From the NCBI RefSeq assembly GCF_000226095.1, contig NC_016474.1:4464001-4528000 (forward strand): a stretch of 64,000 nt of DNA, written 5' to 3'. Positions 3,797 through 30,138 of this stretch are shown piece by piece; the stretch's first letter is position 1; every line of letters begins with the position of its first letter. The stretch comes from Thermothelomyces thermophilus ATCC 42464. Lineage: Eukaryota; Ascomycota; Sordariomycetes; Sordariales; Chaetomiaceae. The translations under genes were made by a program, and so were the position numbers. The notes beneath the pieces are model-generated. The model saw nothing but the letters and a program-made list of their open reading frames with translations, did no database searches and had not been told where the DNA came from.

Positions 3797-3917
3797 CGAT
3801 GCCCCTCCTTTAAGGCTTTCAACCCGAAAGCCCTCTTAGGCCATTTCAAATAGCGCTAACAACCCTTAGTAAGTTATCTCCTGTGTTTCCCTCTTTCCTC
3901 TGTATACTGCTGATAAT

Positions 3918-4495
3918 ATGTCTTGTATAGTAAAGCGTTTGACAAAAAGGTCTGTGAAGACCGAGGAGTGTATTGCCCTGGCTGCTGCCATTAACGAGCT
4001 AGGGTTCGAAGTAATGCCTTGTTCTTATTGTTTTTCTCGTGGCCTCTGCTGCCGTATAATAGAGAGTTCTTCTTGTTACGGCGAATGCGTTCGTTGTAGG
4101 AGGTTATATGACGGTTCTAGGGTTCTGGTCTCGTCTTGTCTATGTTCCCTTATTAGTATATTTTTCCTGTACTAACTTCTGCAGTGTCTTATATCATAGA
4201 CAAGTCAAAGTGCCTTGACCAGTTAGAATAAGATGCTAAGGAGGCTCTCTATACTAACCGCGATTCGTTAGTAAAAGCGTAGCGTTATCTAGACGAGTCT
4301 CTAGCTTATTTAGACTATATTCGTTATTAAAAGCGATCATTATTATCTCGAGGGTCGGAGATAATTTACCAGGGTCTTGTGTCTTTAGATAAATTAGAAG
4401 AGGTAGAGCAATAGGAATTAGGGGTAGTTCTAGGTATATAGCTTAATGGTAGTATTAACATTATTAACTAGGGCGCCGTCTTCGATTCTGTCCTA
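3918..4495 (+). pseudogene. Antisense ORF (aORF) of element B: Cys-rich, coiled-coil protein remnant
   Basis: This ORF runs opposite to element B, between its chromodomain and polypurine tract. It opens at ATG 3918 and stays open for 85 codons, including a cysteine cluster (PCSYCF, LCC, SSCYGECVRC) at about residues 34-60. A 47-bp intron at 4138-4184, with a CTAAC branch site and GCAG acceptor, restores frame into a charged helical stretch (LDQLE, RSLLSRGSEII, LDKLEEVEQ) up to about 4490. In-frame stops in that second part are all TAG, as expected from RIP of CAG or TGG codons, so it was coding before mutation. Elements A, C, D and E have counterparts at the same place. I recall similar uncharacterised proteins in fungal genomes, but the function is unknown. 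The donor (GTCTAT) is weak, so the exon joint is tentative. Confidence 0.65.
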
Positions 4496-4599
4496 GTTTT
4501 GCCTTTAGTCGATCTAGGTTCTACTAATGGAACTATTCTAGTTTCGTAGGGTAGTTTAAGTTCTTAACTAGTTCCTATAAGTTATCTTCTAGTCTGAAA

Positions 4600-7500
4600 T
4601 CGAGCTATTTAATTAGATACTATAGTTCCCTATTGATAATACGTAAATCTAGAATTTCTTCGATATCCTATTCTTTCTCTTCGTCCTTTGCTTTAATATA
4701 TATGGCAACCTTAGCGTTCTTTAGTACTAGTTTAAGAAGTGAAATATAAAAAACATCCATCTATAGTTATATAGATAATAATAATAATAGTCGGTAGTTA
4801 GATGTCGAAATTCGTTCTTTAATAACAAAGGGTCTGACCTTCTTAAAGTCTAGCTTCGTACTTAGTCATTTAGTTTATAGGTTTTATACGATTAGATAGA
4901 CTTTGTCTCCCCTCTCTAGGCGAGGTCCCTTGAGCCTATGTTTGTTATAGTAGTTCTTTATTCTGGTTCTAATAAACTCGAGTTCCTTTTTGAGCTTTTT
5001 ATATGGTATATATATTTGTTCTACTTTAACTACTACTCTTAGCACTATAACCTCTAGTCTTTGCCTAAGGTCTGCTTTATATCTGTAATTTGTAAAGAAC
5101 AGTATAACTTTAGTCGTTTCTATTAGCATTATATTATAGGTAAGTTATACTATTAGTAATAGTATGACCTAGTCGTCTTACTAGTAGTTAATGTAAGAAT
5201 AGAGGTACTACTTGATAACTTGGTTTAATCGTTCTGTTTGTCCGTTAGTCTATAGGTAATATGCCGTTAATAGCTTGCTATTAATGCCTAATCGTTACAT
5301 TAACGCTTACTAGAACTTCGATACGAACTTGGTATCTCTGTCGGTAATCTATTCTTATAGCTAAGCATATATAGATATAACTTATTAATAGATTATATCT
5401 ACTAGTTATTTAGCTATCTAGGACTCTTTATAGGGAAAAAAGTATACCTATTTAGTTAGGCGATCTACTATAGTAAGAATATTATCGTAGATTACTCCTA
5501 TAGCCATATCCTTAGATTCTAGTAGTTTCGTAATAAAGTCTATCGTAACTAAACTCTATAGTTTGTTAGCTATTAGCAGTAGCTAAAGTAGCCTATATAG
5601 CTTATACCATGCCGTTTTACTTCGATTATAGATATCATAGTTCTATATAACTTCCTTAACTTGTGCCATTAACTGTGGAAAGTTATAGTGTTTCTTGACT
5701 TGTACGATAGTCTTCGTAACTCCTTTGTATCCTCCGAGTTTCGATTTGTAGAGTTCTCGAATCATTTATAGCTATTAATCCCTGTTATAGATATATGCTT
5801 TGCCTCGGTACTAGAGTTTCCTATCTCTTTCTTCTACTGCATTAGGTACTACTAGTCCGGGTGCTGCTTAATACTATATTTTATTAATCCTTTCTTCTCA
5901 AAAGATTATATCATATTCTAGGAACAAGTCGAGTAGATCGTCTTCCACGGGTATCTATATTTTATGATATAGCGTTCCGTCTATTTGTTCCTTAAATAAT
6001 AGTAGCATTGTTTCCGTTTGTCCTTCCATATGATCTGTTTGTTAGCCTAAGGCATCCGCTTATACGTTTTCTTTGCCCTTCTTATAGCAGATTTTAAAAT
6101 TGAATTCTATAAGGGATTCTACCTATCGTATTTATCGTTCGTTAAGCTCCTTTATCGTCGTAAAGTATCGTAAATTCTTATAATCTGTATATACTTATAC
6201 TAGTTTAATTATACCACCAAGATATAGTTACTATTCCTTAAAAGCTTTGACAATTGTAAGTAGTTCTTTATTATAGATTAGATAATTAAGATATAGTCCA
6301 TCAAGCTTCTTTAAAAAGAAGGCTATAGGATGTAGCTTCTCTTGTTTATCTCGTTATCTTAACTATCCTCTAATGGCATAGTCTGAAGCGTCTGTTTCTA
6401 CCTCGAATAGCTTTTTAGGGTCTAGTAATACCAGTACTAGATCTTTAGTAATGGCGTTATAGATTTATATAAATACTTGCTTATATTACTCTTCCTATTA
6501 GAATTTAGCATTCTTCTTAGTAAGTTCGTATAAAGGTCGTACGATCGCTCTAAAGTTCCTAATAAACATCTGGTAAAAGTTTATAAACCTAATGAAACTT
6601 CGTACTTCTATAACTAACGTTAGTCATAGCCAATCCTTGATAGCTTTAACCTTTAAGGGTTCTATCTGGATTTATCCTAGGGATATTTTATATTTTAAAA
6701 ATACCGTCTTCCTAATATAGAATTCGCTCTTTTCCTTGTTAACTAATAGCTTATATACGTATAACGTGTCTAGTACTACTCTTATATACTTCTGGTGTTC
6801 GTCTATCGTCTTAGAGAAGATAAGTATATCGTTAAGATAATATACCGTAAATTTGTCGAGAAAGGGTCAGATAGCTTAATTAATTAGAGCTTAGAACGTT
6901 ACTAACGTGTTTGTAAGTCCGAATAGCATAACAAGGTACTTGTAGTGACTATAGGGTATCTTAAAGGCCGTTTTTTACTTGTTGCCTTCTTTGATCTATA
7001 TATAGTTATAGGCCGATAGCAAGTCAAGATATATAAAATATTAGGCTCCTACTAACTAATCTTAGAGCCGTAAGATTAGCGGTAACAGGTATCGATTTTT
7101 CATAGTCTATTCATTAAATTACTGTGACGAACCCAACTCAGACTTCTTCTAAAAGGGTCCAGACGGAGGTGGGTTGAGCGTGACAAGCAGGCAGGTCGTC
7201 TGAGGGATTCGGTGAAGCCAAAGGGTTCACAACAACACTTAGAGTTGTCTCTCACAGTAATCAGCAATGCTCGGTATAAGTACTGTGATTGTGATTGTTA
7301 CCACTGGTGAACTCCAGAGTCCACCATAACGAGTGACTATCTACATGTATATATAATCCTGAGATCACTCTTCACCTAGTGATTCTTTGCCGTCTGGATC
7401 ACGGCTGCGGTAGTGATCCCATAGTGTATGGATCACTTTGCCAAGCGTGATCCTTTCCTGATTGGTCTGTTCGTGCTTGCTGTCCTATTGGCCTGTCGGG

Positions 7501-10500: not shown

Positions 10501-10880
10501 GTCTCGTAGCTATATAGAGGACTTTGGCTTTATCGTCTAGAAACTTATTATCATTAAGCCAGAAGTAAGATTAGAGGTTCGTTAGGAATCCTATAAGATC
10601 TTCCTTAGTTCCTCTGTATTTACTAGGTAGTTTGATCTTAATATAGCTCGCTTTAGCGCCTTCGAATGCCTTAATTTTGGTATAGGCCTTATTAACTAGC
10701 TTTTACAAGTACTTTTCGCCGTTCTCGAGTTCCTTGATTTAAGCTTAAGTAGCCTTATCTCTCTAGTCTAACTCCTAGATCTGCTACTAGAGTTAACTAA
10801 GCTAGGTAAGTAGTTATTTGGCTGTAACGTTAATAGCTATGTCAATGTCAAGGTCGAAATTACCTTCGTCCTAAACTATA
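4600..10880 (-). pseudogene. Element B gag-pol remnant
   Basis: RIPed gag-pol on the minus strand. The chromodomain lies near 4600-4680 and the integrase C-terminal stretch with GDKVYL at 4884-5129. The integrase core is near 5200-5900, RNase H near 6100-6450 and RT near 6600-7120 and 7549-7700, split by the solo LTR. The protease is near 8400-8470, and gag with a degraded CCHC knuckle (near 9920-9950) extends to about 10880. Many in-frame TAG and TAA codons are present. The order matches Ty3/gypsy elements with a C-terminal chromodomain, which in other fungi bind heterochromatin marks. The two halves around the solo LTR rejoin in frame once one ATTAC copy is removed. Confidence 0.88.
7123..7543 (-). 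repeat. Solo LTR, nearly RIP-free, TSD ATTAC
   Basis: A 421-bp LTR from TGTGACGA to CCGTGACA, flanked by perfect 5-bp duplications ATTAC (7118-7122 and 7544-7548). It lies inside the RT region of element B, and the surrounding pol sequence is continuous when it is removed with one ATTAC. It is visibly richer in GC than its surroundings and keeps CpA and TpG sites that are TpA in the other copies, so it gives the best view of the unmutated LTR. There is no internal sequence beside it, so the element collapsed by LTR-LTR recombination. Confidence 0.96.
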
Positions 10881-10906
10881 ATAGAATAAAGGGAGTGATA
10901 GCAACG

Positions 10907-11175
10907 TATAACGAACCTAACTTAGACTTCTTCTAAAAGAGTTTAGACGAAGGTAGGTTAAGTGGGACAAGTGTATAGGTTGTCTAAGGGATTTAGTGAA
11001 GCTAAAGAGTTTATAATAATACTAGAGTTACCTCTTATAGTAATTAGTAATGCTTGGTATAAGTACTATAATTGTAGGTTACTATTACTAGTAAACTCCT
11101 AGAGTCTACTATAACGAGTGACTATTTATATATATATATAATCCTAGGATTACCCTTTACCTAGTGATCCTTTAG
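10907..11175 (-). repeat. Element B 5' LTR, left part (269 bp)
   Basis: U5-side part of B's 5' LTR, broken at 11175 by element C. With the right part at 18817-18969 (153 bp) it sums to exactly 422 bp, the length of B's 3' LTR. The last five bases, TTTAG (11171-11175), are the left target-site duplication of C and pair with TTTGG at 18812-18816, one RIP-type G-to-A apart. Confidence 0.93.
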
Positions 11176-11632: not shown

Positions 11633-11649
11633 CGTTACTATCACTCCCT

Positions 11650-14600
11650 TTGTTCTATTATAGTTCAGAACAAAGGTAATTTCAACCTTAATATCGACAT
11701 AACTACTAACATTACGGCCGAATAGCTGCTTACCTAGCTTGGTTAACTCTATTAGCGGATCTAGGAGTTAGACTAGAGAGACAAGGCTGCTTAAGCTCGG
11801 ATCAAGGAACTCAAGAATAGTGAAAAGCACTCGTAGAAGCTAATTAACAAGGCCTACACCAAAATCAAGGCACTCGAAGGCACTAAAGCAAGCCGTATTA
11901 AGATTGAACTACCTAGCAAATATAGAGGAACTAAGGAGGATCTTATAGGATTCCTAACGAACCTCTGATCCTATTTCCGGCTTAATGATAATAAGTTTCT
12001 GGATAATAAGGCTAAAGTCCTCTATATAGCTACGAGACTAGAGGGCAAGGTACTTAGATAGTTTAAGCCTATATAGAATAATTATCTTACTAAGGAAGAC
12101 GAAGATGACCGAGATACGTTTATGTAAGCAGTCTTTCGATCCTACGACCATTTTAAAGAAGAGCTTTAGAAGGTTTTTAGCGATAAAGACGAGAAAATTT
12201 ATATATAAGAAAGACTTGCTAATCTCTAATAGATTAAGTTAGTAGCTTCCTATACTATATAGTTTAGATAGGATATATTTAAGTCTTAGCTTAACGATAA
12301 GGTATTAATATAACTATTCTATAATAGCTTAAAGGAAAAGGTTAAAGACGAGCTATATAAGTACGACCGGCCTAAGACCCTAGATAAATACATCGCGTAA
12401 GCCATTAGAATTGATAATTAACTCTATATATAAGAGTAGTAAAAACGAGGTTAGATAAACGGAACTACAATTAAGGCTAACGATAAGAAGAAACGAGTAT
12501 ATGTTAGTACCTTGTATAGGATATATCCTAGAGCTATAGATATAGATATAGTATAGATGCAGGACCAAAAGAAGATAACTAAAGACAAGTCTAATATTAC
12601 TTACTATAACTATAGAAAGAAAGGGCACTATAAGCAAAAATATTAAAGCCCGAAGAAAGACTAGAAACTAGTCCCTAGAAAGGAAATTACAACTATTAAC
12701 AAAACCGCTAAGGATATTATCAAAGTAGCAGCTATAAGCTACAAAGATAGGGATAGTAATATAGACAGTCTTAGACGCGACGGCGACGGTAAAGACGAAC
12801 AAGCACTATACTCCAAACTAGTTATAGTAGACCTAGAGATAGGTCTTGCCGAATAAGACACGGCAGGAGAATATGTACTACCAATTTCGATTCTCCTAGC
12901 CTTAAGGTAGTAGGGTTTTATAGTTACCTAGAGGCGGGATAGATTATGGATAACCAATACCTAAGGAATCGAGAGATCTAGACCTAATGTTCCATTCCTC
13001 TAGGAACGAATCGAATGGTACCGTAATAAAGTTTTCTAGCTTAATACGGAACTATATAAATAGGATAGACGCTTAATTTGACTTGCCTAGTAGAGCGATA
13101 AGATAAGAGACAAGATAAGAGAACTCTAATATATTATAGAAACTATTAGAGGAGAACGGTCTATGATATATAATAGGCCTAATAGCTATACTAAGTATTT
13201 TAACAATTAGTAACTTAGCTATAATGTATGGAACCCTAAGTACTAGTTTATATATACGAACCAAGGAAAAGATAAACGTATATAGGAAAACTACTAGAAG
13301 AAATATTCCTACCTTAGCATTAGAGTACCTATAGTCTATATATAGTAGGAAGGATTTGGAAAAAAATTCTAATACCTTCTAGGTAATGCTACGTGACTAT
13401 ACCTATAATATAAGGCATATATACAAATGCCCTGGTTTTAATATGTGTTATATAAATGCTGATACCACTTTTACGACAAATTCGAAAATAACCACTGGCT
13501 AACCTGATAAGGAAATGAGGACGGAAGCCTCTACCCTATGGAATAGGTCTATGATACAGGAAATAGAGCGGCCGAATTGCTCTAGAAGATCGAAGCCTAC
13601 AATCTAGAAGGCATTATAGTAGTTCTAAAACGAGCCTGGCCTAGGTACTACGGAATAGGATAAAATATATAGGACTCGTACTGGAGTAACGGTTGCCTCT
13701 ACTACACAAATAAGAAGAAATCGCGAATTCGGGAACTTTAGATAAAGTTATAGCATATATAACAGAAAGCAGAACAGACCTAATAGTAGGAAACTATAAG
13801 CACTTAATGGCTTATAGAAATGAGCATAATTAACAAAGCTACTATTAGCCGAATAACCAAAGAGGTTAGTACTAACCTAGGAAACGGGTCAAGGCCCTTC
13901 AAGGGGCCTAAAAACTATTAACACCTATATAGCGGCGAGTAGTAGCGTAGTATAGGAGGAACTGGCGTAAGAGACCACTATATCAAGACCTCCTGGTAGA
14001 AATATAAGAAATTGCTGTAATCCTTAGATAACGGCGGCAAGACAAGCGACTATAGATAATAGTATAATGGAGATAGCACGAAATGCTTGTACTAGTAGAT
14101 AGTAGAGTAGAGATAAACCTGATTTCGCCGACGCTTGTAAATTAGCTACCGATACCCTAGAGAATAAAGCAAAAGTATAGCATAGTCAAAGGGCCATTTC
14201 TAATGTAATAGGTATATAGGGAGACCGAACCAATCGACATTACTATAGCAAGGAAGACTATAATAGTTATATTTAGCATTATAGATATAGGTAATAATAA
14301 AGATATAATATTAGGGTTACTATAGTATGAAGATTACGACCTAGACATTAACTAGAAGAATAGTAGCTACCTATAACCCTAAACGGAGTCGTATTTAACT
14401 AGCGAGATAGGGAGCGTATAAAGATTACGAGCAGACGATGCTTAGGGGAAGGCATATCTTATAGATCTACCGCAAGAGACAAACAATGGCAGGCAGACTA
14501 TTATAGACTCTAGAAAAAGCGGCATAATGATACCGACGTTACGATAGGAGGAACGAGCTAAATTGCCGATAGCTGTTCTCTCTATTGATAAATGCGGAGC

Positions 14601-17580
14601 ATTATAACCGGAGTAATAGGTTAAGATAGGAGAAATCGCTAGTATTGCTATAGACGGAACCAAGTTTGTATACTATTAGAAAGCCGAGAGATAAGACAAG
14701 ACTAGGGGAGTACCGAAGGAATATAAAAGATACCTAGCATTCGAACTAAAGTATCTAGAAGGATTACTAGAGTATAGCCTATAGGATTATAAGATTAAGC
14801 TTAAGGAAGGAGTATAACTAAAGTTCTTTAAGATTTACTATATAAGCTAGATATAGAACGAAGAACTTAAGCGATATTTAGAGGAGAACCTTTAAAGAGG
14901 ATATATCTGCCTATTAACATCGCTAGTAGGCTACCTAATCCTATTTATGTCTAAGAAGGATGGAAAGCTATAGTTATATATTAACTATCGGTAACTTAAT
15001 AAATAGATTGTAAAAAACCAATACCTATTACTATTAATCTTATGGCTCTAAGATTAGTTAGCAGGAGCCTAATATTTTACATGTCTTAACTTGCTATTAG
15101 CCTATAACTATATACGGATCAAAGAAGGCAACGAGTAGAAAACGGCCTTTAGGATACCCTATAGTTACTATAAGTACCTTGTCATGCTATTTAGACTTAT
15201 AAATGTATCGGTAACGTTCTAAGCCCTAATTAATCAAGCTATCTACTCCTTTCTTGACAAATTTACGGTATATTATCTCGACGATATACTTATCTTCTCT
15301 AAGACGATAGATAAATACTAGAAGTACATAAGAGTAGTGCTAGACGCGTTATATACGTATAAACTATCAGTTAACAAAGAAAAGAGCAAATTCTATATTA
15401 GGAAGATAGTGTTTTTAAGATATAAGATATCCCTAGGACAAATCTAGATAGAACCTTTAAAGGTTAAAGCTATTAAGGATTGGCTACGACCGACGTTAGT
15501 CACGGAAGTACGAAGTTTCATTAGGTTTACGAACTTCTACTAGATATTTATTAGGAACTTTAGAGCGATCGTACGACCTTTATACGAACTTACTAAGAAG
15601 AACGCTAAATTCTAATAGGAAGAGTAATACGAGTAAGCATTTATGTAGATCCGCGATGCCATTACTAAAGATCTAGTACTAGTGCTACCAGACCCTAAGA
15701 AGCTATTTGAGGTAGAAACGGACGCTTTAGACTATACTATCAGAAGATGATTAGGATAACGAGACGAACAAGGGAAGCTACATCCTATAGCCTTCTTTTT
15801 AAAGAAGCTCGATAGACTATATCTTAATTATCTAATCTATAATAAGGAACTACTTACGATTGTTAAAGCTTTTAAGGAATGGTAACTATATCTTAGTAGT
15901 ACGATCAAACTAGTATAAGTATATATAGATTATAAGAATTTATAATACTTTATAATGACGAAGGAGTTTAATAGACAATGAATACAATAGGTAGAATTCC
16001 TTACGGAACTCAATTTTGAGATCTATTATAAGAAGGGTAAAGAGAATATACGAGCGGATACCTTAAGCCGACGAACGGATTATATAGAAGGACAAATAGA
16101 AACAACGCTACCGTTATTCAAGGAACGAATAGATAGAACGCTATATTATAAAACATAGATACCTATAGAAGACAATCTACTCAACTCGTTCCTAGAATAT
16201 TACGTAATCTTTCGAGAAGAAAGAACTAACAAGGTATAGTATTAAGTAATACCTAGACTAGTAGTACCTAATAGAGTAGAAGAAAAAGATAGGAAACTCT
16301 GGTACCGAGGTAAAGCGTATATCTACGATAAAGATTAATAGCTACGAATGATTTAAGAACTCTACGAGTCGAAACTCGGAGGATACAAAGGAGTTACGAA
16401 GACTGTCGTACAAGTCAAGAAACACTACAACTTTCCACAGTTAACAGTATAAGTTAAGGAAGTTATATAGAACTATAACATCTATAGTCGAAGCAAAGCG
16501 GTATAGTATAAGCTATATAGGCTACTTTAGCTACTGCTAATAGCTAACAAACTATGGAGTTTAGTTATAATAGACTTTATTACGAAACTGCTAGAATCTA
16601 AGGATATAGCTATAGGGGTAATCTACGATAGTATTCTTACTATAGTAGACCGCCTAACTAAATAGGTATACTTCTTTCCTTATAAGGAGTCCTAGACAGC
16701 GGAACAGTTAGTAAACGTAATCTATCGGCAAGTTACATTAGTACATGCTTGGCTATAGGAATGGATTACTAATAGAGATACTAAGTTTGTATCGAAGTTC
16801 TGGTAAGCGTTAATGTAACGATTAGGCGTTAATAGTAAGCTGTTAACGGCATATTACCTACAAACCGACGGACAAACGGAGTGACTAAACCAAGTTATCA
16901 AGTAGTACCTCCGTTCTTATGTTAACTACTAGTAAGACGACTAGGTTATACTATTACTAATAGTATAACTCGCTTATAATACAATGCTAATAGAAATAAC
17001 TAAAGTTATACTATTCTTTATAAACTATAGATATAAAGCAGACCTTAGGCAAGGACTAGAGGTTATAGTACCGAGAGCAGCAGTCAAAGTAGAACAAATG
17101 TACGCACTATATAAGAAGCTTAAAAAGGAACTCGAGTTTGTTAGGACTAGAATAAAGAACTACTATAATGAATATAGGCTTAAGGGACCTTGCCTAGAGA
17201 AGGGAGACAAAGTCTACCTAATTATATAAAACTTATAAACCAAACGACTAAATACAAAGCTGGACTTTAAGAAAGTCAGACCCTTCATTATTAAAGAACG
17301 AATCTCGACATCTAACTATCGACTATTATTACTATTATCTATATAATTATAGATAGACATTTTTCATATTTTACTTCTCGAACTAGCGCTAAAGAATGCT
17401 AAGGTTACTATATATATTAAAGTAAAAGACAAAGAGGAAGAATAGGACGTTAAAGAAATCCTAGATTTATATCCTAGATTTATATATTATTAATAGAGAA
17501 CTATAGTACCTAGTTAAATAGCTTAATTTTAGACTAGAAGACAACTTATAGGAACTAGTTAAGATCCTAAGTTACCTTAA
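11650..17580 (+). pseudogene. Element C gag-pol remnant
   Basis: Gag starts soon after the LTR. It contains a TAEQLLTQLGQLYQRI-like coiled segment near 11715-11770 and a CCHC knuckle whose cysteines are now Tyr (YYNYRKKGHYK, near 12600-12650). Then follow the protease near 14095, RT near 14930-15500, RNase H near 15720-15880, integrase near 16300-17250 including the 81-codon open stretch 16984-17229 that ends in GDKVYLI, and the chromodomain near 17440-17600. Stops are frequent. C-to-T and G-to-A changes on the same strand explain both CAG-to-TAG and TGT-to-TAT, as RIP does. No frame is long enough to be expressed. Confidence 0.88.
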
Positions 17581-17699
17581 GAAACTAGAGTAGTTCTACC
17601 GGTAGAATCCTAACCGGCTATAAGAACCGGTTCTAAAGCCTATTCCCTAATAGAAAAAGAGGGGAACCTGCTAGAATTAAGACTAGGATCTAAACCGAT

Positions 17700-18290
17700 T
17701 GACTCCTAATCAAGCACGTCAAAAGCACCTAACGCCTAAGCTTGACCTACAAGGGTCTATATCTCCGATATTAGTAGAGGAGTATCTAGTTCTTCCTCCT
17801 CCTCTAGACGAGCTATACTATAACGAAAAACTTCGGTACCACGATCGCGCAGGGATTGCTACAAACGACGTAATCGACTTAAACGGCTTAGCATCTAAGC
17901 GAGAAGCGCCTTAGTCTTAGCAATCTCTTTCGAAACCTTCTCCTGCTCCGATAAATTCGAAAGGACTAAGACAGTTAGTAACCTAGGACTTTAAAGGAAA
18001 ATAATAAGGAACCTATAGGCATTTATAACATTCGGGTTACTATACTTCTTACCTATATAAATATAGTTCTAATACTTGTTTAAACCCTCTATTATTATAT
18101 AATGCTTTTATAGCTTTGTATTTTAATAACGCTTATAAGGTATAGCAACCTTGTAACCCTCTCGCTTAATCTTAATTATAATGGTATATTGTTTACGCTT
18201 AGGATTACAACAGTTCCTAAGGACACGATCAGCTATAATGGAAGGAAGCTAGTATAAGAAGGACATTACCTATAGGGAAAAGAAGGGGTG
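17700..18290 (-). pseudogene. Antisense ORF remnant of element C (coiled-coil type)
   Basis: Read on the minus strand, this part of element C gives a helical, charged sequence (NLSEQEKVSKEIAKTKALL, then LSRLRRL and SLRDRGTEVF near 17815-17880) followed by acidic residues. It lies at the same place and orientation as the B aORF. It shares the LRRL, RG-E and F-x-x-x-L pattern but differs in sequence, so it belongs to another subfamily. An upstream cysteine region with Cys-to-Tyr changes is likely near 18050-18200. Start, introns and end are not resolved. The 71-codon plus-strand ORF at 17699-17914 is its shadow. Confidence 0.55.
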
Positions 18291-18354
18291 TTAGTGGTAT
18301 TTAAAACAAGTTATAAGAAGCTTTCGGGTTGAAAGCCCTAAAGAAGGGGCATCG

Positions 18355-18811
18355 TATCATAAGCTAACTATATACCACGACCCGGTAGGGCGCAGCAGAC
18401 TAAACGAGCCACTAATCAAGAAGGGCACGGAGCAAGGCTGACACGGGATCGCTAGGGAGCGTAGGCTACTACGGGCGAACAATTGCCAAAAGGGAAGGAT
18501 AGCGGAGGATAGCCAGCTACTAAAGGCGATCCTAGGGCAGGCTAGAAGGGGACTATAAGCGACTGACAGAAGTATATATATATATAGATAGTCACTCGTT
18601 ACGGTGGACTCTAGGAGTTTACTAGTGATAGCAACCTAACCTATAATTATAGTACTTATACTAAGCATCGCTAACTATTGTAGGAGATAACTCTAGTGTT
18701 GTTATGAACTCTTTGGCTTTACCGAATCCCTTAGACGACCTGTATACTCGTCCCGCTTAACCTACCTTTGTCTGAACCCTTTTAGAAGAAGTCTAAGTTG
18801 GGTTTGTCACA
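18355..18811 (+). repeat. Element C 3' LTR (457 bp)
   Basis: It begins TATCATAAGCTAAC directly after the purine tract AAGAAGGGGCATCG and ends GTTTGTCACA. It has the same length and type as the 5' copy at 11176. Five bases TTTGG follow as the right target-site duplication. Differences between the two C LTRs are mostly C/T and G/A, so they cannot be used as a clock. Confidence 0.92.
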
Positions 18812-18816
18812 TTTGG

Positions 18817-18969: not shown

Positions 18970-20946
18970 GTAGTACCTAGACCACTAGTACCTAATAGAG
19001 TAAAAGAAAGAGATAGGAAACTCTAGTACCAAGGCAAAGTATATATCTATGACAGGGATTAATAGCTGCGAATGATTCGAGAACTCTATAAGTCGAGACT
19101 TGGAGGACATAAAGGAATTACGAAGACTATCGCATAAGTTAGGAAACATTACGACTTTCCATAGTTAATAGCACGAGTTAAGGAAGTCGTATAGAACTAT
19201 AATATCTATAACCGAAGCAAAACGGCATGATATAAGCCGTATAAGCTACTTTAGCTACTACTAATAGCTAATAAACTATAAAGTTCGGTTATAATAGACT
19301 TTATTACAAAGCTACTAGAATCCTAGGATATAGCTATAGGAGTAACCTATGATAGTATTCTTACTATAGTAGATTGCCTGACTAAATAGGTATACTTCTT
19401 TCCCTATAAGGAGTCCTAGATAGCTAAATAGCTAGTAGACGTAATCTATTAGCAAGTTATATTAGTATATACTTAGCTATAAGAATAGATTACCGATAGA
19501 GATACCAAGTTTATATCGAAGTTCTAGCAAGCGTTAATATAACAATTAAGCATTAATAGCAAGCTATCAATAGTATATTACCTATAGACTAACAGATAAA
19601 CGGAGCGACTAAACTAAGTTATTAAATAATACCTCTACTCTTATATTAACTACTAGTAAGACGACTAGGTTATATTATTACTAATAGTATAACTTGCTTA
19701 TAATATAATACTAATAGAAACGACCAAGGCCATACCGTTCTTCGCGAACTATAGATATAAAGCAGACCTTAGACAAGGACTAGAGGTCATAATGCTAAGA
19801 GCAGCAGTCAAAGCAGAACAAATATATATACTATATAAAAAGCTTAAAAAGGAACTCGAGTTTATCAAGACTAGAATAAAGAACTACTACGACAAACACA
19901 GGCTTAAGGGATCTTACCTAGAGAGGGGAGACAAAGTCTACCTAATCGTACAAAACTTATAAACTAAACGACCAAGTATAAAGCTAGACTTTAAGAAGGT
20001 TAGACCCTTCGTTATTAAAAAACGAATTTCGATATCTAACTACCGACTATCGTTACCATTATCTATATAACTATAGACAGATATTTTTCACATTTCACTT
20101 CTCGAACTAGTATTAAAGAATGCTAAGGTTGCTATATATATTAAAGCAAAGGACGAAGAGGAAGAATAGAACGTTAAAGAAATTCTAGATTTATATATTA
20201 TTAATGGAGAACTATAGTACCTAGTTAAGTGGCTTGATTTCGGACTAGAAGACAACTTATAGGAACTAGTCTAGAACTTAAACTGCCCTAAGAAACTAGA
20301 ATAGTTCTACTAGTAGAACCCGGATCGACCGTAGGCACTAGCTCGGACAAAACGGCCAAGTTAGCCTCTGACAAATCTAGGCCTAAAGAAGACTAGTCAA
20401 ATAGGACGTTAGCACCTTAGGACTATACGTCACTAATAACGCGTACCTCGGAATCCTGTACCATCCATTTTTCTGCTTCTATTTCCTCTAGAAACTATAA
20501 GCCTCGCCGAAACAGCTCGGAACCCTGCTCCTTTAAGAAACGTTTCTAGCGACAAAGACGAGCTAATCGGCCGATAGCCATCTAAAGTTAAGTCTAAAGA
20601 ACGAAAAGGGCCTCTTTAGTATTAGCCTCTTCTTGTTCTATATATTTTTGTTTAGATATAATCTTTATTACTATAAAAGATTAGCTATAAATATTAAGGT
20701 AACAAACTAGGTTACGAACAAGTAGACGCTGTATTGGAACTATCGTAAGAACGACCTTAATATATATATTTGCTATAGCAAGAAGAGCCTAACACTATAC
20801 AATAAGCTAAGTTCTACTTAAAACACTATAAATATAGTATAACGTCTATACTAGAAGAATTAATAAAAGAAATAAGCGTAGTATGCTATTAGGATTTCGA
20901 AGAACGGCACTTAGAGATATAATCTACTATCTTATTAGCTACTAGT
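18970..20946 (+). mobile_element. Element A, middle segment: integrase, chromodomain, aORF region
   Basis: The continuation of element A. Integrase reads through stops with DFITKLLES near 19295 and TDRDTKF near 19490, and ends with GDKVYLIV near 19940. The chromodomain, with YLVKWLDFGLEDN, is near 20190-20300. The segment ends at 20946, where element D is inserted (TSD CTAGT, 20942-20946 and 28347-28351). Confidence 0.9.
20400..20946 (-). pseudogene. Antisense ORF remnant of element A
   Basis: On the minus strand the 20490-20620 stretch reads, through TAG stops, as a charged helix with RLARLCR, KRFLKEQGSELFRRGL and FLEEIEAEKW. This is the same kind of C-terminal coiled-coil as the aORFs in B, C and E, at the same place relative to the chromodomain. 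The subfamily differs from that of B and D. The N-terminal part is interrupted by element D and was not resolved. Confidence 0.55.
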
Positions 20947-21368
20947 TATCACGGAAATATACATGTAGGACGCCGCCTAAGCCGCCTTCCCTGACAAGCT
21001 AATGGGATAGCAGGTACAAACAGACCAATCAGGAAAGGATCACGCTTAGCAAAGTAATCTATACACTATAGGATCACTATCACAGCCGTGATCCAGATAG
21101 CAAAAGATCACTAGATAAAGAGTAATCCTAGGATTATATATATATATAGATAGCCACTCGTTATAGTAAACTCCAGGAGTTTACTAGTAATAGTAACACA
21201 CAATCATAGTACTCATACCAAGCATCGTTAACTACTATAAGAGATAACTCTAGTATTATTATAAACCCTTTAGCTTTACTAAATCCCTTAGACAACCTAT
21301 ATACTTGTCCTACTTAACCTACCTTTGTCTAAACCCTTTTAGAAGAAGTCTAAGTTAGGTTCGTCATA
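20947..21368 (+). repeat. Element D 5' LTR (422 bp)
   Basis: It begins TATCACGGAAATAT (RIPed TGTCACGG) and ends CGTCATA (RIPed CGTCACA). It is followed by the leader CGTTGCTATTACTCCC shared with elements B and C. Confidence 0.93.
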
Positions 21369-21389
21369 CGTTGCTATTACTCCCTTTGT

Positions 21390-24300
21390 TCTATCATAGT
21401 TTAGGACAAAGGTGATTTCGACCTTAACATCGATATAACTATTAACGTTACAGCCGAATAGCTGCTTACCTAGCTTAGTTAACTCTATTAGCGGATCTAG
21501 GAGTTAGACTAGAGAGATAAGGCTACTTAAGCTCGGATCAAGGAACTCGAGAATAGCGAAAAGCACTCGTAGAAGCTAGTTAACGAGGTTTACGCCAAAA
21601 TTAAGACACTCGAAGGCGCCAAAGCAAGCTGTATTAAGATCGAACTACCTAGTAAATATAGAGGAACTAAGGAGGATCTTATAGGATTCCTAATAAACCT
21701 CTGATCCTACTTTTGGCTTAATAATGATAAGTTTCTAGATAATAAAGCTAAAGTCCTCTATATAGCTACGAGATTGGAGGGTAAGGCACTTAGATAGTTT
21801 AAGCCTATATAGAATGATTATCTTACTAAGGAAGACAAGGACGACCGAGACGTATTTATATAGGTAGTCTTTCGATCCTACGACTGTTTTAAAGAAGAGC
21901 TTTAGAAGGTTTTTAGTGATAAAGATAAGAAGATTTATATATAAGAAAGACTCGCTAATCTCTAATAGACTAAGTTAGTAGCCTCTTATACTATATAGTT
22001 TAGATAGGATATATTTAAATCTTAGCTTAATAATAAAGTATTAATATAACTATTCTATAATAGCTTAAAGGAAAAGGTTAAAGATAAGCTATATAAGTAT
22101 AACTAACCTAAAATCCTAGACAAATATATTATATAGGCCATTAGGATCGATAATTAACTCTATATATAAGAGTAGTAGAAACGAGGTCAGATAAATAGAA
22201 CTATAGTTAAGGCTAATGATAAGAAAAAACGAGCATATATTAGCACCTCGTGTAGGACGTATCTTAGAGCTATAGATATAGATATAATATAGAAGCAGGA
22301 TAAAAAGAAGACGACCAAAGACAAGTCTAACGTTACTTACTATAACTATAGAAAGAAAGGACACTATAAATAAGAATGTCAAAGCCTAAAGAAAGACTAG
22401 AAACTAGTCCCTAGAAAGGAAATTATAGCTATCGACAAAACCACCAAGGATGTTATCGAAGTAGTAGCTACAAGCTACAAAGATAGGGATAGCAACACAG
22501 ACAGTCTCGGATATAACGATAATAGTAAAGACAAATAAGCACTATACTCTGAACTAGTCATAGTAGACCTAGAGACAGGTCTTACTAAATAGGATACGGT
22601 AGGAGAATATATACTACTAATTTCGATTCTCCTAGCCTTAAGGTAGTAGGGTTTTATAGTTACCTAGAGGTAGGATAGATCGTAGATAACCGATACCTAA
22701 GGAATTAAGAGACCTAGACCTAATATTCTATTCCTCTAGGAACGAATCGAATAGTACTATAACGAAGTTTTCTAGCTTAATATAGAACTACGTAAATGGG
22801 ATAGACATTTGATTCGACTTACCTAGTAGAGCGATAAGATAAGGGACAAGATAAGGGAACTCTAACGTATCGTAGAAACCATTAAAGGGGAATAGCCTAT
22901 AATATATGATAGGCCTAATAGCTACGCCAAGTATTTTGACGATTAGCAACTTAGCTACGATGTATAGAACCCTAAGTACTAGTTTATACGCACGAACCGA
23001 GGAAAAGACAAGCGTACGTAGGAAAGCTATTAGAAGAAATACTCCTACCTTAGTATTAGAGTACCTATAGTCTATATATAGTAGGAAGGATTTAGAAAAG
23101 AATTCTAATACCTTCTAGGCAACGCTATATAACTATACCTATAATACAAGGCATATATATAAGTGCCTTAGTTCTAGTATATGTCATACGAATGCCGATA
23201 CTACTTTCGCGACAAATTCGAAAACAATCACTAGCCGACCTGATAAGGAAATAAGGACAGAAGTCTCCGCCCTATGGAATAGGTCTATAATATAGGAAAT
23301 AAAGCGGCCGAATTGCTCTAGAAGATTGAAGCCTACAATCTAAAAGGCATTATAGTAGTTCTGAAACAAGCCTAGCCTAGGTACTATAGAATAGGACGAG
23401 ATATATAGAACTTATGCTAGAGCAACGATTACCTCTACCATATAGACGAAAAGAAATCGCGAATTTAGGAGCTTTAGATAAAGCTATAGTACGTACGATA
23501 GAAAGCAAAACGGACCTAATAGTAGGAAGCTACTAGCACTTAATAGCTTATAGAAATAAGTACGATTAACGAAGTTACTATTAGTCAAATAACCAAAGAG
23601 GTTAACACTAACCTAGGAAATAAGTTAGGGCCCTTTAAGGGGTCTAAAAATCATTAACGCCCATATAGCGGCGAGTAGTAGCATAATATGGGAAGAACTA
23701 GCATAAGAGACCACTATATTAAGACCTCCCGGCAGAAATATAGGAAATCGCTACAATCTTTAGACGATGGCGGCAAGATAAGCGATTATAGATAATAGTA
23801 CAATGGAAACAGCACGAAATACTCGTACTAGTAGATAGTAGAGCAGAGATAAACCTGATTTCGCTAACGCTTGTAAATTAGCTATAGATACCTTAGAGAA
23901 TAAAGCGGAAGCATAGTATAGTTAAAGGGCCATTTCTAATATAATAGATATATAGGGAGACCGAACTAATTGATATTATTATAGTAAGGAAGACTATGGT
24001 AGTTATATTTAGCATTATAGATATAGGTAATGATAAAGATATAATATTAGGCTTACTATAGTATAAAGATTACGACCTAGACATTAGCTAGAAGAATAGT
24101 AGCTACCTATAACCCTAAACGAAGTTATATTTGACTAGCAAGATAGGGAGGATCGTAAACAGACAATACTTAGGGGAAGGCATATCCTATAGATCTACCA
24201 CAAGAGACGAACAATGGCAGGCAGACTACTACAGACTCTAGAAGAAGCGGTATAACGATACCGATGTTACGATAGGAGGAACGAGCTAAACTGCCGATAG

Positions 24301-27300
24301 CTGTTCTCTCTGTTAACGAATACGGAGCACTACAACCAGAGTAGTAGGTTGAGACAGGAGAAATTGCTAGCATCGCTATAGATGGAACTAAGTTCGTATA
24401 TTACTAGAAAACCGAGAAATAAGACAAGACTAGAAAAGTACTAGAGGAATACAAAGGATACCTAGCATTCGAACTAAAGTATCTAGAAGGGTTACTAGAG
24501 CACGGCCTATAGGATTATAAGATCAAGCTTAAGGAAGGAGTATAACTAAAGTTCTTTAAGATTTACTATACGAGCTAGACTTAGAACGAAGAACTTAAGC
24601 GATATTTAGAGGAGAACCTTTAAAGAGGATATATCTACCTATCGATATTACTAGTAAGCTACCTAATCTTGTTTATACCTAAGAAAGATAGAAAGCTATA
24701 GTTATATATTAACTATTAGTAACTTAATAAATAGACTATAAAAAACCGATACCTATTATTGCTAATCTTATAGCTCTAAGATTAGTTAGTAGGAGCGTAA
24801 TATTTTACGTATCTTAACTTGCTATTAGCCTATAACTATATATGGATTAAAGAAGGTAACGAGTAGAAAACGGCCTTTAGGATACCCTATAGCTACTATA
24901 AGTACCTTGTTATGCTATTTAGACTTATAAACGCGCTAGCAACATTCTAAGCCTTAATCGATCAAGCTATCTAACCCTTTCTTGACAAATTCGTAGTATA
25001 TTATCTCGATAACATATTTATCTTCTCTAAGATAATAAACAAATACTAGAAGCATGTAAGAGTAGTGCTAGACGCGTTATACGTGTACAAGCTATCAATT
25101 AATAAGGAAAAGAGCAAATTCTATATTAGGAAGACGGTGTTTTTAGGATACAAGATATCCCTAGAACAAATCTAGATAGAACCTTTAAAGGTCGAAGGTA
25201 TTAAGGATTAGCTATAACTAACGTTAATTACGGAAGTACAAAGTTTTATCGGGTTTATAAACTTCTACCGGATGTTTATTAAGAACTTTAGAGCGATTAT
25301 ATAACCTTTATACGAACTTACTAAGAAGAATGCTAAATTCTAATAGGAAGAATAGCACGAGTAAGCATTTACATAGATCCGCGACGCCATTACTAAAGAT
25401 CTAGTACTAGTGCTACTAGACCCTAAGAAGCCATTTTAGGTAGAAACAGACGCTTTAGACTACGCTATCGGAGGATAATTAGGATAACGAGACAAACAAG
25501 GGAAGCTATATCCTATAGCCTTCTTTTTAAAGAAGCTTGATAGACTATATCTTAATTATCTAATCTATAATAAGGAACTACTTACAATTGTCGAAGCTTT
25601 TAAAGAATAGCGACTATACCTTAGCGGTATGATCGAACTAATATAAGTATATATAGATTATAAGAATTTACGATACTTTACGATGATAAAGAAGCTTAAT
25701 AGACGATGAATATAATAGGCAGAATTCCTCATAGAATTCAATTTTGAGATCCGTTATAAGAAGGGCAAAGAGAACGTATAAGTAGATGCCTTAAGCCGAC
25801 GAACGGATTATACGGAAGGACGAATAGAAATAATACTACTATTATTTAAGGAACGAATGGACAGAACGCTATATTATGAAATATAGACACCTGTAGAAGA
25901 TGATCTACTTAACTTGTTCCTAGAATGTTATATAATCTTTCGAGAAGAAAGAACTAACGAGGTATAGTATTAAGTAATACCTAGACTAGTAGTACCTAAT
26001 AGAGTAAAAGAAAAAGATAGGAAACTCTAGTACCGAGGCAAAGTATATATCTATAACGGGGATTAATAGCTACGAAAGATTCGAGAACTCTATAAGTCGA
26101 AACTCGGAGGATATAAAGAAGTTATAAAGACTGTCGTATAAGTTAAGAAACATTATAACTTTCTATAGTTAATAGTATAAGTCAAGGAAGTCATATAGAG
26201 CTATAATATTTGTAATCGAAGCAAAACGGCACGATATAAGCTATATAGGCTACTTTAGCTACTACTAATAGCTAATAAACTATAGAGTTTAATTATAATA
26301 GACTTTATTACAAAACTACTAGAATCTAAGGATATAGCTATAAGGGTAATCTACGATAGTATTCTCACTATAGTAGACCGCCTAACTAAATAGGTATACT
26401 TCTTTCCCTACAAGGAGTCCTAGATAGTAGAACAGTTAGTAGACATAATCTACCGGTAAGTTGTATTAGTATACGCTTAGCTATAGGAATAGATTATTAA
26501 TAGAGATACTAAGTTTGTATCGAAGTTCTAGCAAGCGTTAATATAATAATTAGGCATTAATAGCAAGCTATTAACGGCATATTACCTATAAACCGACAGA
26601 CAAATAGAGTAACTAAACCAAGTTATCGAGCAGTACTTCTATTCTTACGTTAACTACTAGTAAGACGACTAGGTCATGCTATTGCTAATAGCACAACTTG
26701 CCTATAATATAATGCTAATGGAAATAACTAAAGTTATATCGTTCTTTATAAACTATAGATACAAAGCAGACCTTAGGTAAGGACTAGAGGTTATAGTGCC
26801 AAGAGCAGCAGTCAAAGCAGAACAAATGTACACATTATACAAAAAGCTTAAAAAGGAACTCGAGTTTGTCAGGACCAAAATAAAGAACTACTACAATAAA
26901 CATAGGCTCAAGGGACCTTACCTAGAGAGGGGAGACAAAGTCTACTTAATTATATAAAACTTACAAACCAAATGACTAAGCACAAAGCTAGACTTTAAAA
27001 AGGTCAGACCCTTTATTATCAAAGAACGAATCTCGACATCTAACTATTAACTATCGTTACCATTATCTATATAACTACAGACAGACATTTTTTATATTTC
27101 ACTTCTCGAACTAGCGCCAAAGAATACTAAGGTTACTATATATATCGAAGCAGAAGACAAAGAGGAAGAATAGGATGTTAAAGAAATTCTAGATTTATAT
27201 ATTATTAATAGAGAACTATAGTACCTAGTTAAATAGCTCGATTTTGGACTAGAAGATAACTTATAGGAACCTATTAAGAACCTAAATTGCCTTAAGAAAC

Positions 27301-27330
27301 TAGAACAGTTCTACTAACAGAACCTAGATC
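21390..27330 (+). pseudogene. Element D gag-pol remnant
   Basis: The order of domains is as in element C: gag with a coiled N-terminal part and a mutated zinc knuckle, protease, RT, RNase H, integrase with DFITKLLES near 26300 and NRDTKF near 26500, GDKVYLI near 26935, and a chromodomain with YLVKWLDFGLEDN near 27220. TAG and TAA codons break every frame. The 67-88 codon minus-strand ORFs inside it are antisense shadows that recur only because the elements are homologous. Confidence 0.88.
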
Positions 27331-27389
27331 GACCAAAGGCAAAACCGGGACAGAATCGAAGACGGCGCCCTAGTTAATAACGTTAACGC

Positions 27390-27830
27390 CACTATTAAGC
27401 TATATATCTAGAACTACCCCTAATTCCTACTACTCTACCTCTTCTAATTTATCTAAAGACGTAAGACCCTGGCAAACTATCTCTGACCCCCGAGATAATA
27501 ACGATCGCTTTAAACGATAGATACGGTCTAAATAAGCTAGAGACTTGTCTAGATAACGCTACGCTTTTACTAACAAATTACAGTTAGTATAGAGAGCCTC
27601 CTTAGCATCTTGTTCTAATTGGTCAAGGCGCTTATTTGCCGTAACGAGAAGAACTCTCTATTATACGGCAGCAGAGGCTATAAGAAAAACAAAAAGAACA
27701 AGGCATCACTTCGAACCCTAGCTCGTTAATAGTAGTAGCTAGGGCAATGTGCTCCTTAGTCTTTATAGACCTTTTTATTAAACGCTTTACTATATAAGAT
27801 ATATTGTCAGCAGTATACAGAAGGAAGATA
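27390..27830 (-). pseudogene. Antisense ORF remnant of element D (same subfamily as B)
   Basis: The minus-strand reading follows the B aORF closely: INELGFEVMPCSFCF, then SLCCRIIESSS, then a jump to LDQLEQDAKEA and a helical end. The start codon is now ATA (RIPed ATG, near 27800). About 100 bp covering the second cysteine group and the intron seen in B are missing here, so the remnant carries a deletion as well as TAG stops. Confidence 0.6.
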
Positions 27831-27924
27831 GAAATATAGAAGATAACTTACCAAGGGATATTAGCACTATTTAAAACAGCCTAAGATAGGCTTTCGGGTC
27901 GAAAGCCTTAAAGGAGGGGCATCG

Positions 27925-28346
27925 TGTCACGGAAATATGTATATAGAACACCGCCTAAGCTGCCTTCCCTAACAAGCTAATAGGATAGTAGGTACAAACG
28001 GACCAATTAGGAAAGGATCACGCTTGGCAAAGTGATCTATACACTATAAGATCACTATTACAGCCGTGATCCAGACAGCAAAGGATCACTAGATGAAGAG
28101 TGATCCTAGGATTATATATATATATAGATAGCCACTTATTATAGTAGACTCTAGGAGTTTACTAGTAATAGTAACGTATAATTACAGTACTTATACTAAG
28201 CATCGTTAACTACCATGAGAGACAACTCTAGTGTTGTTATGAACCCTTTGGCTTTACCGAATCCCTTAGACGACCTGTACGCTTGTCCCGCTTAACCTAC
28301 CTTCGTCTGAACCCTTTTAGAAGAAGTCTGAGTTAGGTTCGTCACA
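27925..28346 (+). repeat. Element D 3' LTR (422 bp)
   Basis: TGTCACGGAAATAT to TTCGTCACA, directly after the purine tract AAAGGAGGGGCATCG. Its last 150 bp look less RIPed than most copies, keeping TGTTGTTATGAACCC and GACGACCTG. It is followed by the target-site duplication CTAGT. Confidence 0.93.
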
Positions 28347-28351
28347 CTAGT

Positions 28352-28890
28352 AGTATAGAAAAAGGAAAAAAATTACGAGGTATATATAGAAGAGGATGTT
28401 AGCGCTATTTAAAATAACCTAAAGAGGGCTTTTAGGTTAAAAGCCTTAGAGGGAGGGCATTATGTTACGGAAATATATATATAGATATTGCCTAAGCTAC
28501 TAGTATAAATAGGCTAATCAAGCCAAAGGAATGATAGACTAATTAGGACAGGATTACACTTGGCAAGAAATAATCCTAGCAAAGGATCACTAGCTTATAA
28601 TATAAGCTAGGTAAGCTAATATAGAGGATTATTATAATTGCTAGTAATCCTAGGATTATATATATATATAGATAGTCACTCGTTATAGTAGACTCTAAGA
28701 GTTTACTAGTAATAGTAACCTATAATTATAGTACTTATACTAAGTATTGTTAACTACTGTAAGAAATAACTCTAGTGTTATTATAAACCCTTTGGCTTTA
28801 CCGAATCCCTTAGACGACCTACCTACTTATCCCACTCAATCTACCTTCATCTGAACCCTTTTAGAAGAAGTCTAAGTTAGGTTCATCATA
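28352..28890 (+). mobile_element. Element A, 3' segment with polypurine tract and 3' LTR
   Basis: Sequence after the second CTAGT continues element A's 3' end. It has the purine-rich tract GAGGGAGGGCATTA near 28450-28462 and then the 428-bp 3' LTR at 28463-28890. The next bases are the integrase C-terminal region of another plus-strand element (E), so A was inserted in E's integrase. Only one side of this insertion is visible, so its TSD cannot be checked. Confidence 0.85.
28463..28890 (+). repeat. Element A 3' LTR (428 bp)
   Basis: It begins TGTTACGGAAATAT and ends TTCATCATA (RIPed TTCGTCACA). U5 matches the other LTRs. The U3 part diverges from B and D after the first 40 bases. Confidence 0.88.
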
Positions 28891-29499
28891 TAAGAGTAGT
28901 AGTCAAAGTAGAACAAATACACACACTATATAAAAAGCTTAAAAAGGAACTCGAGTTTGTTAAGACTAGAATAAAGAACTACTATAATAAATATAGGCTC
29001 GAGAGACCTTACCTAGAGAGGGGAGATAAAGTCTACCTAATCGTACGAAACTTACAAACTAAACGACTAAGTACGAAGCTAGACTTTAAGAAGGTCGGAC
29101 CCTTCGTTATCAAAGAACGAATTTCGACATCTAACTACCGACTATCGTTACCGTCATCTATATAACTATAGATAGATATTTTTTATATTTCACTTCTCGA
29201 ACTAGTACTAAAGAATGCTAAAGTTACTATATATATCGAAGTAGAGAACAAAGAGAAAGAATAGAATATTAAAGAAATTCTAGATTTATATATTATTAAT
29301 GGAGAACTATAGTATCTAATCAAATAGCTCGATTTTAGACTAGAAGATAACTTATAGGAACCTATTAAGAACCTAAATTACTCTAAGAAACTTCAGCAGT
29401 TCTACTAGAGGAACCCTAACTAACCGGAAGTAATAGACCTAAAACTAACCCGAAATCGGCTAGCAAGGACAGATCCAAAGGAACTTTAGGATATACGGA

Positions 29500-30010
29500 A
29501 TCCTAAAGCTGTCCGAAATTGGCAGATAAGCAAGATAGGGTCAAAAAGGGTATAGTAACCCTAGAAGCCTCTGCTACCGCCGCCACCTTAGCCTCTTTAC
29601 GTTCTACTCGCTCTAACTCCTCTATACTATTAATACCCCAAGTAATAGCCCTTATTATCTTCTTAAACTATATTTGCTTCTGTTTCCGGAGATAAAGGAC
29701 CTGCTCCTTAGCAGCTATAAGCTTATCCTTAAGTTTTTAATACTAAGCCGCAATAGATCGAAGCTAAGTAGGAGAAACGCTAAGAACGTCATAATTCAAA
29801 CGCTTATTACGAACATACTCTACGTATTAAGAAGAATTACTTTTCGAAACCTCGTACAAACTAAGGCCTTTGGACTTATATAGCATATAAGGACGTATCG
29901 TTAAAAGATTATCCGAGGAAAGAATCGTAGCTAAGAGATAGTTAGCACGAAGAGTCGATATAACAGGCTTAGACTTTAACTTCTTTCTTATACGATTAGT
30001 TATCTTAACA
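29500..30010 (-). pseudogene. Antisense ORF remnant of element E
   Basis: The minus-strand reading is the best preserved of the series. It contains YDVLSVSP, LRSIAA, KLKDKLIAAKEQVLYLRKQ (near 29667-29735) and a C-terminal helix INSIEELERVERKEAKVAA, with single TAG interruptions. It has a leucine-zipper-like coiled coil with the LRKQK motif. The 69-codon plus-strand ORF at 29674-29883 is its shadow. Start and intron structure are not resolved. Confidence 0.6.
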
Positions 30011-30138
30011 ATATTATAAAAGCAAGAGAAGAGGGAGACTAAGGAACATAACTATATATAAGTAAGGAGAGGGGTATTAGCGTTATTTAAAATAGACCTA
30101 AGTCTTTTAAGGACGAAAGACCTAAGGGAGGGGCATCA

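Follow-up and report, generated by a model that had tools for sequence, protein, structure and literature searches.

The DNA stretch analysed here, called the window, covers 64,000 bases (4464001-4528000 of its contig) of the 38.74-Mb genome of Thermothelomyces thermophilus ATCC 42464, which is assembled in 7 contigs. Its bases 1 to ~31000, with a GC content of 32-41% per kb as compared to mostly 47-69% in the remainder, harbour five long terminal repeat (LTR) retrotransposons, designated A to E, each with a gene on the strand opposite to gag-pol, located between the chromodomain-bearing pol and the 3' LTR. They are Ty3/Gypsy chromoviruses, as their pol is common to a reference copy of a further type, F (L089, G000 C2:927500-935000), which is free of repeat-induced point mutation (RIP) and has the order protease, reverse transcriptase, RNase H and integrase plus a chromodomain, exceeding the Pfam cut-offs for Asp_protease_2, RVT_1, RT_RNaseH, Integrase_H2C2 and Chromo, with rve just under (30.4 vs 32.6). 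The antisense gene is a genuine accessory gene that was open before RIP, and it exists not as one gene but as several divergent types on a nearly identical backbone, which a sequence-only reading of this locus had overlooked. Types A, B (to which D also belongs), C and E occur in the window, and the fifth type, F, is found in a young family elsewhere in the genome.

Direct translation of B reveals a front frame from 3918, containing PCSYC...LCC...GECVRC, and, separated from it by 47 bp, a charged frame resembling a coiled coil. Read through with X at stops, the B protein matches MYCTH_77342 (P0001) of the same species with 71% identity (E 3e-64) and P0002 of Corynascus similis with 51% identity. 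A profile of P0001 and P0002 retrieved 71 proteins and a wider profile 47, 22 of them new, giving 93 homologues in total, with each search scoring only the 7997 candidates sharing most words; thus, the many uncharacterised fungal proteins of similar look mentioned in the sequence-only reading do exist. A source is named for a minority of these records, covering Corynascus, Staphylotrichum, Apiospora, Metarhizium, Colletotrichum, Verticillium, Canariomyces, Thyridium, Cryphonectria, Neoarthrinium, a Xylariaceae and Fusarium, and no Botrytis is among those named. An external profile, built from 34 of the 71 proteins of the first search and excluding P0001, which is from T. thermophilus itself, matches the antisense protein in all five window elements (E 2e-7 to 8e-15) with zero matches in five dinucleotide shuffles of window bases 1-31000, which upholds the proposal of a protein frame in every element. 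The sole additional window match with E <1 lies at 63043-63192 (E 0.24). Among 88 genome copies, drawn from the best 40 matches to each window antisense gene, this profile matched 30/30 of type A, 20/20 of B, 26/30 of C and 8/8 of E, and it detected the cysteine part in 20/20 B, 19/30 A, 4/8 E and 2/30 C copies.

The B gene lies on the plus strand, with exon 1 (start and Zn2Cys6-like cysteine cluster) at 3918..4137, where tblastn places P0001 residues 1-73 at 3918-4136 with 81% identity and no stop, and the external profile matches 3933-4136 (E 1.4e-14). A 47-bp intron (4138..4184; GT...TACTAAC...AG), whose boundary is the junction in annotated P0001, is followed by exon 2 (4185..4561), encoding the long helix and tail (profile match 4175-4561, E 4.5e-14; P0001 residues 69-168 at 4169-4468). 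The 3' part of exon 2 overlaps the end of pol, which extends on the minus strand from the reverse transcriptase to the chromodomain region (4467..7115; F-type pol residues 375-1257 by tblastn). The other four genes are on the minus strand. In A, the start and a degraded cysteine cluster occupy 20724..20930 (P0037 residues 1-69, 41% identity, E 2e-10) and the long helix and tail 20282..20665 (P0037 residues 73-200, 62% identity, E 4e-44; profile match 20309-20665). C retains the long helix and tail at 17571..17954 (P0037 residues 75-200, E 8e-11; P0032, E 8e-11; profile match 17664-17948, E 3e-9), beside its pol at 13876..17466 on the plus strand (F-type pol residues 1-1197). E, left-truncated with the pol end at 28893..29429 on the plus strand (F-type pol residues 1067-1245), carries a single intronless frame at 29437..30003 (P0065 residues 1-196, 41% identity, E 4e-35; profile match 29548-29820, E 1.8e-7). 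The profile misses the cysteine part of A, C and E in the window, although a degraded version is found by tblastn in A and E. D has an incomplete exon 1 (27635..27802; P0001 residues 1-56, 70% identity; profile match 27644-27787) followed by an internal deletion and exon 2 (27286..27648; P0001 residues 77-168; profile match over the same bases, E 8e-15), hence is without residues 57-76 in P0001 numbering and without the intron. D (20947-28347) interrupts A: its 5' LTR begins at 20947, which is 16 bases upstream of the aligned antisense start of A (20930), and its 3' LTR ends at ~28347, with A's polypurine tract (PPT) block and LTR beyond, at about 28389-28891. The location between chromodomain and PPT, as proposed from the sequence, mostly holds, except that the antisense 3' end runs tail to tail into the pol end with an overlap of ~110-125 nt.

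In the matched stretches of the 88 copies 706 stops are present, comprising 528 TAG, 170 TAA and 8 TGA, so that the share of TAG is 75% and not "almost only" TAG as had been stated. When aligned to P0001, 105 stops of B fall on 83 Gln, 21 Arg and 1 Glu positions, and against P0003 142 stops fall on Gln (62), Arg (40), Trp (20), Glu (11) and others (9). Similarly, 421 stops of A against P0037 correspond to Gln (189), Arg (113), Trp (57), Leu (30), Glu (26) and others (6), and 55 stops of E against P0065 to Gln (19), Trp (14), Arg (11) and others (11), with Trp cells turned into stops in 20/20 (B vs P0003), 57/60 (A) and 14/16 (E) cases. Thus, in A, B and E most stops lie on Gln or Trp codons of intact relatives, in line with the origin from RIP of CAG and TGG suggested earlier, which fits C poorly, where 13/30 copies align to P0037 and 52 stops are spread over Arg (11), Lys (11), Trp (7), Asp (6), Gln (2) and others (15). 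Stop density was rejected as a coding test, since A, C and E each have another frame with fewer stops.

The intron is one that only an antisense transcript could use. Its length of 47 bp in B, noted already in the sequence-only reading, is found in 23/23 copies including the window copy (20 RIPed and 3 nearly intact), with the acceptor AG in 23/23, the donor GT in 19/23 and AT in 4/23, and the branch sequence TACTRAC in 22/23 and TATTAAC in 1/23; these counts rely on a purine/pyrimidine (RY) match, an earlier regex having caught just 8/23 copies. The F gene has an intron (GTAAGC...TAG) at the position equal to that of B, the gene model P0040 of Canariomyces has its junction there too, and in P0003 and P0004 an intron at this place seems to be read through. 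Six further F copies are near-identical (0-1 mismatch over 615-643 aligned bases), with an intron of 66-73 bp depending on a poly-T tract, and the more divergent copy L099 has 36 mismatches. Splicing, as read from these sequences and gene models, would be specific to the antisense transcript, and the intron presumably outlasts retrotransposition because the sense genomic RNA is unspliced there. A comparison of F with three B copies gave dN 0.52 and dS 2.3-2.5, which is near saturation, and hence dN/dS of ~0.2; differences at codon positions 1/2/3 are about 63/56/100 of 159. In the real frame pN/pS is 0.52-0.53, as compared to 1.0-1.3 in the two shifted forward frames and 0.59-0.61 in one opposite-strand frame, whose wobble positions coincide with those of the real frame; among near-identical B copies pN/pS was uninformative. 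F and B antisense genes thus differ mainly at synonymous sites, and the antisense frames are real in view of the annotated homologues, the clean shuffle control, the stops at Gln and Trp in A, B and E and the splice sites. Taken with the intact relatives in this genome and in other fungi, these data agree with the earlier view of a formerly selected frame, for which dN/dS on un-RIPed copies had been suggested as a check.

The antisense proteins form a family of ~190-200 residues in length, in which a cysteine cluster of Zn2Cys6 spacing is followed by a long predicted helix and a DW tail. When 35 fuller members picked from the 71 are aligned, C37, C40, C47, C56, C59 and D67 do not vary at all and C66 is almost constant; P0001 carries Tyr at the last Cys position, as RIP of TGC would yield, and in the window copies Cys residues are partly lost to RIP. 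The pattern of the Zn2Cys6 family (PF00172), CX2CX6CX5-16CX2CX6-8C, is complete in 66/93 homologues, many of the others being shorter records, and 39/45 motif matches have the length of CX2CX6CX8CX2CX6C. Matches to Pfam Zn_clus are weak (9/35 members at E <=0.1, best 0.0011; 12.4 bits for P0002 with a curated cut-off of 21), and searches of Pfam and NCBIfam gave no confident name. The AlphaFold model of P0008 (mean pLDDT 86.8) predicts short cluster helices at 38-43 and 57-62 and helices at 73-138 and 143-162, and that of P0068 has a mean pLDDT of 69.7 overall and >90 in the cluster region. Foldseek found no reliable match for either model, and structural matches to NadA, Vipp1 (two) and an HNH endonuclease were discounted as helices of a common kind. 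Sequence and structure matches to Zn2Cys6 factors are likewise weak, and with Cys fixed, other residues add little. Assignment to the Gal4 type is weak piecewise but convergent, and depends mainly on the Cys spacing. Gal4, Put3, Ppr1, Hap1 and Pho7 share the six Cys with the same spacing, the linker and the long helix, and the antisense protein differs from such factors in being without most of the classical basic loop, in its length of ~195 residues and in being encoded antisense in a retrotransposon. Its predicted plan looks like that of a small dimeric DNA-binding protein, and the DW motif, present in 58/93 homologues, may serve in activation. The "regulator" of the sequence-only reading fits this Zn2Cys6-like cluster, long helix and acidic/aromatic tail, with regulation itself remaining conjectural; its "packaging factor" found no support.

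As RIP makes transitions only, transversions were counted as a measure of older differences. Window elements differ from L089 by ~20-25% transitions and hardly any transversions, which in gag-pol amount to about 1% or less among elements. Against F 3800-5803 the transversions number 4 in B, 0 in C and 3 in D, with 3 in A over 1303 covered bases and 1 in E over 473; bins of 500-634 bases in gag have 0-7. At the pol end (390-416 bases) purine/pyrimidine identity is 0.98-1.00 in all pairs of A, B, C, D, E, F and a near-intact B copy. At F 5855-5886, A, C and E cease to align with F, and their antisense DNA matches F and each other no better than shuffled partners. Between A and B only a distant relationship is seen (19% transversions in local alignments of A copies), and B and F differ in the antisense gene by 26-27% transversions (118/448 for near-intact B). 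The PPT block, from F 6516 onward, is once more shared, with 1/78 transversions for near-intact B and 1-7 for B, C, D and E; the adjacent U3 (F 6593-6850) differs by 50/226 transversions between near-intact B and F, and the last 187 LTR bases are common with 1-3 transversions, the value listed under A being that of D's 5' LTR. Thus, the antisense gene and U3 constitute two hypervariable modules, separated by a near-identical PPT block, in an otherwise shared element.

The PPT block of ~78 bp (L089 6516-6594) is kept between types that differ on both of its sides. In the window it was located by an RY probe on the minus strand in B (3790..3868; probe at 3786, 1 mismatch), and on the plus strand in C (18282..18360; 18312, 3 mismatches), D (27853..27931; 27882, 3 mismatches) and A (28389..28469; 28420, 2 mismatches), where D has displaced it and the A-type LTR, whose U3 was used in the pairing analysis below, begins from ~28463. 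The diverged block of E (30070..30147, plus strand), missed by the probe at <=6 mismatches, aligns to F from 6518 with 7 transversions/73. The PPT block includes an 8-bp dyad, GGCTTTCG-GGT-CGAAAGCC, in which E has, by eye, one compensatory change; considered as an RNA hairpin or binding site, the dyad has folding energies that do not stand out (z -2.3 to +0.5 over six folds). An upstream coding exon within this block was dropped, as by eye the frames join inconsistently. Inspection by eye of the leader from PPT block to antisense start in L089 and L090 (types F and B) showed a GTGAGT donor-like motif and, just before the start codon, a CTNAC-like motif, perhaps of an intron in the 5' untranslated region. 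In the young F family, 22 places have an 80-bp PPT block 100% identical to that of L089, seven gene copies are near-identical and the LTRs of one copy are identical over 449 bp; the genome's other copies are heavily RIPed.

For types A, B and C, the pairing of gene and U3 was examined in 68 copies. Own-type U3 follows cleanly in 64/68 (8 B, 27 A and 29 C), two of which, the window copies L001 and L039, are themselves the B and C references. The remainder comprise one weak case (L014, A match), two unassignable (L017 and L052) and one with the block missing (L009, cut by D), and no clean foreign-type U3 was observed in any of the 68; blocks elsewhere in L013, L030, L043, L049 and L050, taken as those of neighbouring elements, were uncounted. 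Two further P0001 matches examined for new types proved to be A type. Across species, with T. thermophilus represented by B and F only, the F protein has 79% identity to Canariomyces P0040 and 52% to B of its own genome, B has 71% identity to Corynascus P0002 in this type comparison, and A copies average 196 bits with P0037, 121 with Canariomyces P0050 and 60 with B. Each of A, C, E, F and B scores higher with a protein recorded elsewhere than with B or F of this genome, hence the types probably predate the species or have been transferred horizontally.

An antisense gene at this position is already known. The gene brtn of Boty-like retrotransposons of Botrytis cinerea encodes BRTN (Zhao et al. 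2011, via PMC8365987, PMC7264820 and PMC4227169), and these are also chromodomain Ty3/Gypsy elements that carry the gene between pol and the 3' LTR in antisense orientation to gag-pol. The passages on BRTN in these three sources mention no zinc cluster or intron, and the likeness is one of position. In plants, antisense frames between pol and the 3' LTR are described for Grande (gene23), RIRE2, Retand (TRP28) and PvRetro13 (SMC) (PMC7264820, PMC11963269); they share place and orientation and are suspected DNA-binding regulators, with nuclear localisation reported for the Grande product, but have TRP28 or SMC-like domains, a longer pol-3' LTR region in Retand and different hosts. The passages concerned call the function of such genes unknown. 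HBZ, also named in PMC11963269, is an antisense accessory gene near the 3' LTR of human T-cell leukaemia virus type 1 (HTLV-1) and a nuclear regulator, which offers an analogy only. The antisense protein has a Zn2Cys6-like cluster and an unrelated host. HTLV-1 HBZ is instead a basic leucine zipper protein. What is new here is the Zn2Cys6 spacing and the arrangement of gene and U3 as two variable modules; a literature search limited to titles and abstract openings retrieved neither a zinc-cluster gene in antisense orientation nor any switching of types among fungal retrotransposons.

The best explanation, favoured with slightly better than even confidence, is that the antisense gene encodes a regulator of the element's own transcription. 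Transcription would begin at an antisense start, the promoter plausibly residing in the 3' LTR or the ~130-nt leader; the protein would enter the nucleus, dimerise via its coiled coil, bind DNA through the zinc cluster and activate or restrain the element's own U3, its co-inherited partner, a target suggested by architecture and linkage only. Template switching is the probable route by which modules are exchanged, since antisense gene, PPT and U3 lie next to each other at the 3' end of the RNA: minus-strand synthesis would copy them from the 3' end of one RNA, and a switch near the pol end to a co-packaged partner RNA would swap the block, with R-U5 and gag-pol staying. Two points weigh against an action on U3: divergence is discordant, with A and B closest in U3 and F and B closest in the gene, and no CGG excess is present in U3 of F or B. 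Each family probably derives from one founder, so that linkage alone could explain the gene-U3 pairing. The Zn2Cys6-like architecture leads to a concrete proposal, dimeric DNA binding at the element's own promoter, and the pattern, in which gag-pol is nearly invariable but antisense gene and U3 are hypervariable, points to regulation and not the replication machinery as the target of selection. A tentative extension of rather low probability, drawn by analogy with phage heteroimmunity, is that antisense gene and U3 may be exchangeable regulator-target cassettes of old trans-species types on one shared backbone, by which families with near-identical gag-pol could coexist without cross-regulation; if true, each element family would have its own regulatory identity.

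A post-transcriptional role, in which the product would be a chromatin tether, a nuclear tether or a nucleoprotein factor bound to element cDNA or RNA, is unlikely. In its favour, a Cys cluster with a long helix would suit any nucleic-acid scaffold, the CGG search yielded no site in U3 and the adjoining PPT block is highly conserved. However, the evolution of such a protein should follow that of the scarcely varying gag-pol, and hypervariability linked to U3 is not anticipated. Rather improbable is a copy-number repressor conferring immunity between elements, with heteroimmune types whose diversity is selected like the repressor modules of temperate phages. Five gene types on a single backbone, lack of clean gene-U3 mismatches in the 68 copies and the closer outside relatives of all types would suit it; but the DW tail would resemble an activation motif more, A and B combine a similar U3 with widely differing genes, and clonal expansion of each family can by itself account for the linkage. 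That the antisense RNA matters, through double-stranded RNA or interference, with the protein frame incidental, is very unlikely: antisense transcripts of LTR elements may act in silencing, as noted in PMC7264820, but codon-level constraint disfavours it, given the cross-genus protein conservation, the near-invariant Cys, the low dN/dS between F and B and the kept intron. Finally, an artefact of RIP, of AT-rich DNA or of mirroring a sense gene can practically be dismissed, as the uninformative stop density in A, C and E and the low pN/pS of one opposite frame, with third positions on the same sites, are outweighed by annotated homologues, clean shuffles, stops at Gln and Trp in A, B and E and splice sites, and only ~125 nt of the gene overlaps pol. 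A set of uncharacterised fungal proteins recorded as "hypothetical" or "Zn(2)-C6 fungal-type domain" may be retrotransposon genes.

Elsewhere in the window, a 48-bp unit is repeated in four tandem copies at 35163-35354 (97% matches) with open frames on both strands, a PCA1-like heavy-metal P-type ATPase is located at 48136-51093 (E1-E2_ATPase, HMA_PCA1) and an FG-repeat nucleoporin region at 58991-59518 (Nucleoporin_FG, E 1e-25).

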